Source: Desulfoscipio geothermicus (GTDB taxonomy: Bacteria; Bacillota; Desulfotomaculia; Desulfotomaculales; Desulfallaceae). From it: a DNA stretch of 64,000 nucleotides. Below are positions 14,636 through 21,338 of the stretch, one piece after another. The notes beneath the pieces were generated by a model. The model was not told the DNA's origin, did not search any database, and saw only the letters and a program-made list of their open reading frames with translations. The position numbers and the translations under genes are program-made. The DNA lies in assembly GCA_016841205.1 (NCBI GenBank), contig JAENZP010000007.1, positions 1-64,000 of the forward strand. The letters are read 5' to 3'. The first letter of the stretch is position 1. The number at the start of each line of letters is the position of its first letter.

Positions 14636-16300
14636 TTAACAATCAATAGCTTCACTGATCGATTTACCGGCCAGCACCATGGGGCTAACCCATTCCTCGG
14701 CGCTAACCAGACAATTAATCAAAACCGGCCCCGGCTCAGTTAGAGCCTGGGGAAGCAGTGTATCCACTTCTTCCTTGCTGCGCAGGGTATAACCTTTAAT
14801 GCCGTAGGCCTGGGCCAGGATAGCAAAGTCCGGGTTAAACTTTAAATCTATCGCCGTATATCGGCCTTCGTAATATACCTTTTGCAGCTGGCGCACCATG
14901 CCCAGCACAGAATTGTTGAAAATAATGATCTTTACGGGCAGCTGCTGTTCTACAATAGTGCCCAGCTCCTGCATGGTCATTTGGAACCCGCCGTCACCCA
15001 CCACTAAAATCACCTGTTCACCGGGCAGGCCTATTTGGGCACCCATGGCCGCAGGCAGCCCAAACCCCATGGCCCCCAAGCCACCGGACGAAATAAGACC
15101 GCCGGCCCGTCTAAACCGGTAATATTGGGCCACCCACATCTGATGCTGGCCCACATCGGTGGCCACCACGGCCTGGCCCCCGGTAATCTCGTCGAGCTTC
15201 TCCACCACATATTGAGGTTTAAGCATACCTTCCACCTCGTAGCGCAACGGATATTCTTGCTTCCAGGTACTCACCTGTTCCAGCCACGAGGGGTCAGTTC
15301 TTTTTTCCAGGCGGGGCAGCAGTTCCTGCAGTACTTGTTTCACATCGCCCACAATAGGTACGTGTACCGGTACATTCTTGCCTATTTCCGCTGGATCAAC
15401 ATCCACATGAATAACCCCGGCCTGAGGCGCAAACTCGCTAATCTTGCCGGTCACCCGGTCATCAAACCGGGCCCCCAGGGCAATGAGCAAATCGCAGTTG
15501 GTTACCGCAAGATTAGCCGCCCGGGTGCCATGCAAGCCCAACATACCGAGAAACAACGGGTGGTCACCGGGAAAGCTGCTTAACCCCTGCAGGGTGTTGG
15601 TAACCGGCGCGTTAATGGTTTCAGCCAAAGCTAGTAGCTCGGCGCTGGACCGGCTGCTGGTGATACCGCCCCCGGCGTAAATTACCGGTCTTTCGGACTG
15701 GGCAATCAGCTTAGCAGCCTCGGCTATTTGATTGGGATGCCCGCGAAAGGTAGGCTTATAGCCGCGCAAATATACCGTTTCAGGATACTGGAACTTAATC
15801 TTGGTCTCGGCCATGTCCTTGGGCAGATCAATTAGCACCGGGCCTGGCCGCCCGGTGGCGGCAATATAAAAAGCGTTTTTAATCATCCTGGGTAACTGGG
15901 CAGCGTCTTTAGCCAGGTAATTATGTTTAGTTATCGGCATGGTAATGCCGGTGGTATCCACTTCCTGAAAGGCATCGGTACCCACCATACCGGTGGAAAC
16001 CTGGCCGGTGATAATGACCAGGGGTACCGAATCCATATAAGCGTTGGCTATCCCGGTGACTAGGTTAGTGGCACCTGGTCCCGAGGTGGCCACTACCACG
16101 CCCACTCGCCCGGTGGCCCGAGCATAGCCGTCCGCCGCGTGCACCGCACCCTGCTCGTGCCGCACCAACACATGCTTGATGGCTGAATCATGCAGAGCAT
16201 CGTACACTGGTAAAATAGTCCCACCGGGGTAGCCGAAAACCAATTCTACTTGTTCTTTTTCCAGGCACTGCACCAGGGCTTGGGCAGCCGTTATTTCCAT
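14636..16300 (-). CDS. ilvB: Acetolactate synthase large subunit, second copy
   Basis: This is a ThDP-dependent acetohydroxyacid synthase catalytic subunit of 554 residues, with the catalytic-glutamate segment RHEQGAVHAADGYARA near residue 50 and the ThDP/Mg motif GDGGFQMTMQEL near 430. A homologous ilvB lies 1.6 kb upstream in the same operon, but only one ilvN is present. The C-terminus (EEWVSPMVLAGKSI) is more divergent than in the first copy. It may share IlvN, act alone, or have a different substrate balance between pyruvate and 2-oxobutyrate. Confidence 0.93.
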   Translation of the reverse strand: MEITAAQALVQCLEKEQVELVFGYPGGTILPVYDALHDSAIKHVLVRHEQGAVHAADGYARATGRVGVVVATSGPGATNLVTGIANAYMDSVPLVIITGQVSTGMVGTDAFQEVDTTGITMPITKHNYLAKDAAQLPRMIKNAFYIAATGRPGPVLIDLPKDMAETKIKFQYPETVYLRGYKPTFRGHPNQIAEAAKLIAQSERPVIYAGGGITSSRSSAELLALAETINAPVTNTLQGLSSFPGDHPLFLGMLGLHGTRAANLAVTNCDLLIALGARFDDRVTGKISEFAPQAGVIHVDVDPAEIGKNVPVHVPIVGDVKQVLQELLPRLEKRTDPSWLEQVSTWKQEYPLRYEVEGMLKPQYVVEKLDEITGGQAVVATDVGQHQMWVAQYYRFRRAGGLISSGGLGAMGFGLPAAMGAQIGLPGEQVILVVGDGGFQMTMQELGTIVEQQLPVKIIIFNNSVLGMVRQLQKVYYEGRYTAIDLKFNPDFAILAQAYGIKGYTLRSKEEVDTLLPQALTEPGPVLINCLVSAEEWVSPMVLAGKSISEAIDC

Positions 16301-20794: not shown

Positions 20795-20955
20795 TATAAA
20801 ATAAATAAGACCCCGCTGATATTTTCCAAGAGTGGAACCTATCCGCTTGGGTCTTTTATCCCCACGGTGTAACCTCCGGCAATTAAACCCCGGCGGCCTG
20901 TACCGCTTGGTCCAGTCCCTCCATCGGAGGCGGAACCCTAGGTACACTTCCCTCC
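20795..20955 (-). promoter_or_regulatory. ykkC-family riboswitch, probably ppGpp (subtype 2a), with terminator
   Basis: On the minus strand the conserved ykkC core elements occur in order: CTAGGGTTCCG, GACTGGACCAAGCGG, ACACCG and GGGGATAAAAGACCC. These are hallmarks of the ykkC class, whose subtypes sense guanidine, ppGpp, PRPP or nucleoside diphosphates. Position before ilvE of a branched-chain operon is typical of the ppGpp subtype. AAGACCC within the aptamer can pair with GGGTCTT 36 nt downstream, which is followed by a T-rich run. Ligand binding would block this terminator, giving an ON switch. The subtype is inferred from context. Confidence 0.85.
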
Positions 20956-21004
20956 ATTAAAATCGACCGCTAAATTCGACCGCATAGCTAACCATTTGCT
21001 AATA

Positions 21005-21303
21005 TAAAAACAAAAACCTCTCGCTCCTGATGAAATAATACCAGGGACGAGAGGCGTAAATTGCTCCCGCGGTACCACCCTGCTTGTTTCCGCGCGACGG
21101 CAAAAACCTCTTGAGTGTGTCAGCGACACAGTGGCAATAACGGGCCACCTGTTCCCGACTCTGCCTACCGGGCGATACCTTTCGACAAAGCAGTTCCGGG
21201 GCGATGTTTTAACCTGTTCCGGCGCTGGTTTTCAGCACCCCAGCTCTCTGTGGCGCGGCTTGCAGGTATTGCTCCCCTTCATAACCTTTAATATAAAAAC
21301 TTA
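21005..21303 (-). promoter_or_regulatory. T-box leader, isoleucine specifier, with terminator
   Basis: On the minus strand Stem I carries ATGAAGGGGAGCAATACCT and the AGAGAG bulge. The specifier loop is bracketed by CAGGT and CCCC and contains ATC (21203-21205) followed by a purine, reading isoleucine. The 14-nt T-box AGGGTGGTACCGCG is at 21068-21081. The terminator stem CCTCTCG / CGAGAGG with T-run is at about 21007-21056. Uncharged tRNA-Ile would favour the antiterminator. It lies directly upstream of the ykkC element in the same leader. Confidence 0.95.
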
Positions 21304-21309
21304 CCTCTC

Positions 21310-21338
21310 AGTATACAGTAAACCATAATTAAGGTCAA
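21310..21338 (-). promoter_or_regulatory. Promoter of the ilv-leu operon
   Basis: On the minus strand TTGACC (21333-21338) and TATACT (21310-21315) are 17 bp apart, just downstream of the DUF445 gene and a few bases before the T-box Stem I. The start site would be near 21303. Confidence 0.85.

Follow-up and report, generated by a model that had tools for sequence, protein, structure and literature searches.

The Leader of the ilv-leu-cimA Operon

The window analyzed here is a stretch of 64,000 nucleotides (nt) from Desulfoscipio geothermicus, a member of the class Desulfotomaculia (contig JAENZP010000007.1, positions 1 to 64,000), and coordinates given without another contig refer to it. Its minus strand carries an operon of branched-chain genes that begins with ilvE (20644-19766; TIGR01122, 332.9 bits) and continues with ilvB, ilvN, ilvC, a second ilvB-like gene, leuA, leuC, leuD, leuB, and cimA (19547-8485; NCBIfam matches), all on one strand. 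ilvE is preceded by a leader of about 660 nt, counted from a promoter-like element, in which the minus-strand order is promoter, T-box, terminator 1, ykkC-class aptamer, terminator 2, and ilvE. A tandem of T-box and ykkC RNA had been claimed for this leader in an earlier reading of the letters (the original prediction), and the two elements are indeed matched by Rfam, in that order, before ilvE. Here, we report that this two-switch leader is a real arrangement found class-wide, and that it is very probably a two-input transcription-attenuation leader, i.e., an isoleucine T-box followed by an aptamer of the guanosine tetraphosphate (ppGpp) type, placed in series as an AND gate.

The sigma-A-like promoter (TTGACC-17-TATACT, 21338-21310, minus strand; 10/12 in a consensus scan) is kept in most of 24 aligned relatives from the class, and no internal promoter reached the threshold of the consensus scan between the T-box and the aptamer. 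Terminator-like sites across the ilvB-cimA region are not more frequent than in shuffled sequence.

The T-box Reads Isoleucine

The T-box (tRNA sensor) is matched at full length by RF00230 at 21291-21040 on the minus strand, where it scores 97.0 bits (E 1.7e-21) and so clears the gathering score of 93. It carries both an antiterminator with AGGGTGGTACCGCG (21081-21043; Rfam alignment and fold) and a competing intrinsic terminator made of a hairpin and a U-tract (21055-21006, hairpin 21055-21016), the hairpin of which folds with -23.8 kcal/mol (z -5.76). According to the Rfam alignment, the specifier is ATC at 21205-21203, the isoleucine codon named in the original prediction. This triplet is invariant in the ilvE leaders of the class (24/24) while its flanking bases vary; T-boxes elsewhere in the genome provide controls, with ATC in the same loop context at ileS, CTC at leuS, GTC at valS, and TAC at tyrS; and ATC is again the specifier in four more tandems, which come from other families of the phylum. 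Because of these three lines of evidence, we consider the T-box of the ilvE leader to be isoleucine-specific, with tRNA-Ile as its predicted ligand.

A second leuA-like gene elsewhere in the genome (L005; contig C36, 311826-312086, minus strand) has its own T-box with the leucine specifier CTC, so leucine control exists apart from the ilv-leu-cimA operon.

The ykkC Aptamer Shares Its Strands with a Second Terminator

RF00442 (Guanidine-I) matches the minus strand at 20952-20842 with 56.9 bits (E 7e-9), which is below its gathering score of 63. We also refer to R1, a covariance model built from 19 ilvE aptamers of relatives, the window aptamer among them. R1 places the aptamer, with helices P0, P1, P2, and P3, at 20953-20832 and gives it 143 bits, a score to be read with its presence in the training set in mind; tandem aptamers that were not used for training reach 110-122 bits. 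The sub-gathering Rfam match, the relative-based model, and covariation that surpasses every one of 500 shuffles and is located mainly in P2 and the loop stem of P1 (P1b) all show that the ykkC core fold is present. The P0 helix is formed by GGAA (20951-20948) and UUCC (20837-20834) and is paired in 19/19 relatives, but it is nearly invariant.

Downstream lies terminator 2 (20855-20795, hairpin at about 20855-20807), an AAGACCC...GGGTCTT hairpin followed by a U-tract, with a folding energy of -25.5 kcal/mol (z -3.5) and with arms that are conserved in the relatives having sequence there. AAGACCC (20855-20849) serves P3 as its 3' strand and this terminator as its 5' arm, and in constrained folds the UUCC of P0 is likewise paired inside it; since both 3' strands are reused, the aptamer and terminator 2 are mutually exclusive. 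The shared AAGACCC arm and the two terminators in series had both been described in the original prediction and hold up here.

Matches to RF00442 were gathered from 101 genomes of the class and sorted by the next gene into groups linked to ilvE, purE, SMR transporters, NUDIX hydrolases, azgA, BMP-lipoprotein, and adenine deaminase, the names being assigned by eye from the protein starts. A T-box core precedes every ilvE-associated ykkC RNA (24/24) by 90-193 nt and precedes none of the other tabulated ykkC matches (purE, SMR, NUDIX, azgA), which argues that the tandem is not a product of chance.

Assignment of the Ligand

Published work on ykkC RNAs offers diagnostic residues for the ligand: position 49 is A in guanidine-I and a pyrimidine in subtype 2, and position 96 is G in >97% of phosphoribosyl pyrophosphate (PRPP) aptamers and either not G or absent in ppGpp aptamers (PMC6031431). 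These positions were read from the alignment of ilvE-, purE-, SMR-, and NUDIX-linked sequences, since a regular expression for the motif did not parse all of the distant purE, SMR, and NUDIX sequences. The window aptamer has C at the equivalent of C49 (20905), as do the subtype 2a and 2b relatives; C at the equivalent of C75 (20869), the proposed partner of the ppGpp guanine (PMC6031431), which is invariant in the alignment; and A at the equivalent of the PRPP-aptamer G96 (20847), the ppGpp signature. From these residues, which reject both guanidine and PRPP, together with the P0 helix, the aptamer is best called subtype 2a, ppGpp-type, and it would bind its ligand as its published relatives do. 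The ppGpp guess of the original prediction gains support from this comparison of sequences.

Rfam was set aside as a classifier of the ligand, as all ykkC subtypes fall on RF00442 and no ppGpp or PRPP family matched the aptamer. The subtype check with Rfam models that accompanied the original prediction therefore came out mixed: its sole match, Guanidine-I, nominally speaks against ppGpp, but this match does not discriminate because it is sub-threshold and because PRPP-type and NUDIX-linked relatives match as well. That match is what a guanidine-I riboswitch would have in its favor. True guanidine-I aptamers of the class, however, score 80-92 bits with RF00442 but drop to about 40 with R1, the SMR-linked (guanidine) aptamers carry A rather than C at position 49, P0 is present here, and the gene downstream is ilvE, not an SMR transporter; we regard guanidine sensing by this RNA as close to negligible. 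A more delicate alternative is that the ligand is PRPP (subtype 2b) or a different nucleotide, for instance a nucleoside diphosphate (NDP, subtype 2c), given that a single point change, G96A, turns a PRPP aptamer into a ppGpp aptamer (PMC6031431). Position 96 is nevertheless A in the window aptamer and G in 20/20 aligned purE aptamers, the genes downstream are branched-chain genes, and the genome has, in addition, a purE aptamer that carries the PRPP signature and reaches 85 bits with R1, versus 143 for the window aptamer. At several core positions the window aptamer is also unlike the NUDIX-linked 2c aptamers, and the R1 scores of guanidine and NUDIX aptamers are 38-49 bits. PRPP or NDP as the ligand thus seems very unlikely to us, and the ppGpp-type assignment is retained.

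The purE aptamer just mentioned (L001; contig C13, 322113-322231, minus strand) is the other ykkC RNA of the genome, and its signature reads CCC-A-G-G-C.

Proposed Mechanism and Its Logic

In the mechanism we propose, RNA polymerase would start at the promoter and meet the T-box first, where uncharged tRNA-Ile would pair at two places, with the specifier AUC and, by its NCCA end, with the UGGU bulge. This pairing would stabilize the antiterminator and let the polymerase pass terminator 1. The subtype 2a aptamer would be transcribed next, and binding of ppGpp or guanosine pentaphosphate (pppGpp) would hold P0 and P3, so that AAGACCC and UUCC are kept in the aptamer, terminator 2 does not form, and transcription reads through into ilvE and the rest of the ilv-leu-cimA operon. 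Full expression would need isoleucine starvation plus the stringent-response signal, an AND gate because both ON switches stand in series.

Several points weigh against this mechanism and against the ppGpp-type assignment on which it is built. P0, P1a, and P3 are almost without variation, which means that covariation is no test of these helices, and positions 49, 75, and 96 were mapped by alignment to the consensus rather than on a structure file. Ligand-free folding of the leader favors the terminator by about 11 kcal/mol, from which it follows that the ON state would rely on co-transcriptional folding and on the ligand. Finally, RelA is activated by uncharged tRNA, tRNA-Ile included. The T-box input and the ppGpp input are therefore correlated, which may bring the logic nearer to a noise filter than to a strict AND. 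Please note that free minimum-energy folding, which gives the terminator state and does not display the aptamer, was rejected as a source of structure, and the comparative structure was used.

If this correlation is taken to its end, the two switches would be redundant or sequential filters on one starvation signal, with no real two-input gate. A RelA-type synthetase is present in the genome, and CodY is present too, both of which fit such an arrangement. On the other hand, ppGpp rises under other starvations, tRNA-Ile can be the sole uncharged species, and the two terminators are separate. We consider redundancy of this kind unlikely and prefer the series AND gate. Loss of CodY was ruled out as the reason for the riboswitch, as CodY is there; the RNA gate is no stand-in for a missing CodY.

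Relation to Known Systems

The T-box/ppGpp tandem was published in 2018 as an AND gate (Sherlock et al., eLife, PMC5912903, Fig. 6C; discussion of PMC6031431), it is cited in a T-box review (PMC7583486), and Table 2 of a 2022 review lists 16 T-box-first and 15 ppGpp-first tandems, labelled T box-Leu (PMC9481103); the statement in the original prediction that T-box tandems had been reported is borne out by PMC5912903 and PMC9481103. The leader described here has much in common with the published gate: one leader with separate expression platforms, both of them ON switches, a branched-chain context, and the T-box-first order. The one difference is that the published gate is listed as leucine (PMC9481103), whereas in the window and in all of the class relatives the specifier is isoleucine, and isoleucine cases may already stand in the primary paper (PMC6003355).

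Riboswitches for ppGpp that precede branched-chain genes act as ON switches (PMC7266159), and the closest parallel for the second switch is the ilvE riboswitch of Desulfitobacterium hafniense, of the same class of RNA and at the same gene, which is reported to respond to ppGpp and pppGpp and drives a (p)ppGpp reporter in Bacillus subtilis (PMC12373219); that system is from another genus, and its reporter had the riboswitch alone. PRPP riboswitches (subtype 2b), such as the purE aptamer of this genome, have the fold, the P0 helix, C49, and C75 in common with the window aptamer but differ in having G at 96, purine genes, and no T-box, and Guanidine-I RNAs have the core ykkC fold in common but differ by A at 49, the lack of P0, and SMR transporter genes.

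In our view, the leader offers a clean, natural case of the proposed RNA AND gate, and the comparative support for it is strong, with one specifier and one gene in 24 relatives of the class; this suggests that the isoleucine version is the standard branched-chain control in the sulfate-reducing and syntrophic Desulfotomaculum-type clostridia. Our understanding of the T-box/ppGpp device class is unchanged by the new case. A bolder claim would be that an isoleucine-specific T-box/ppGpp gate is fixed throughout the class, occurs in further families of the phylum, and is something distinct from the published leucine gate; some species might have a third layer as well, namely a short open reading frame (ORF) whose strong ribosome-binding site sits in a hairpin between terminator 2 and ilvE. 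This reading as a whole we judge unlikely.

The Region Between Terminator 2 and ilvE

In over half of the relatives, 60-140 extra nt lie between terminator 2 and ilvE. Many of these inserts hold a Shine-Dalgarno-like GGGGGTGA/GGAGGTGA inside a small hairpin (window 20775-20757, minus strand; L103, L106, L040, L045, L046, L094). In L103 and L106, the Shine-Dalgarno-like site opens a frame of 44-46 codons the end of which adjoins ilvE, and in the window, the frame after it has 7 codons only, GTG AAA ACA ATC TCC GCA GAT TAA (codons read by eye in both cases). The insert may be what is left of a leader ORF in decay, or it may act in translational control.

Other Observations

Within the operon, the second gene for an acetolactate synthase large subunit (14636-16300, minus strand) follows ilvC and has no small subunit gene of its own adjoining it. 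Two more RNA elements lie on the minus strand of the window, the tyrS T-box with specifier TAC (30575-30345) and a glmS ribozyme-riboswitch (2723-2571; 105 bits).

The leuS T-box leader of this genome, with specifier CTC (L017, 1501-1788; contig C17, 37094-37381), holds a complete tRNA-Ala(GGC) gene with its CCA encoded, nested between two covarying arms of an apparent Stem III, just before the antiterminator. No report of a tRNA-Ala nested in a leuS T-box was found in the literature searched, and it may be more surprising than the ilvE tandem itself. ARAGORN finds the tRNA-Ala(GGC) in 20/20 fetched loci across the class (L193-L212 in relatives), and in four of them, L205, L208, L210, and L212, the gene at this place belongs to a different tRNA-Ala(GGC) lineage. 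That the gene downstream is leuS was confirmed for this genome and three relatives only.
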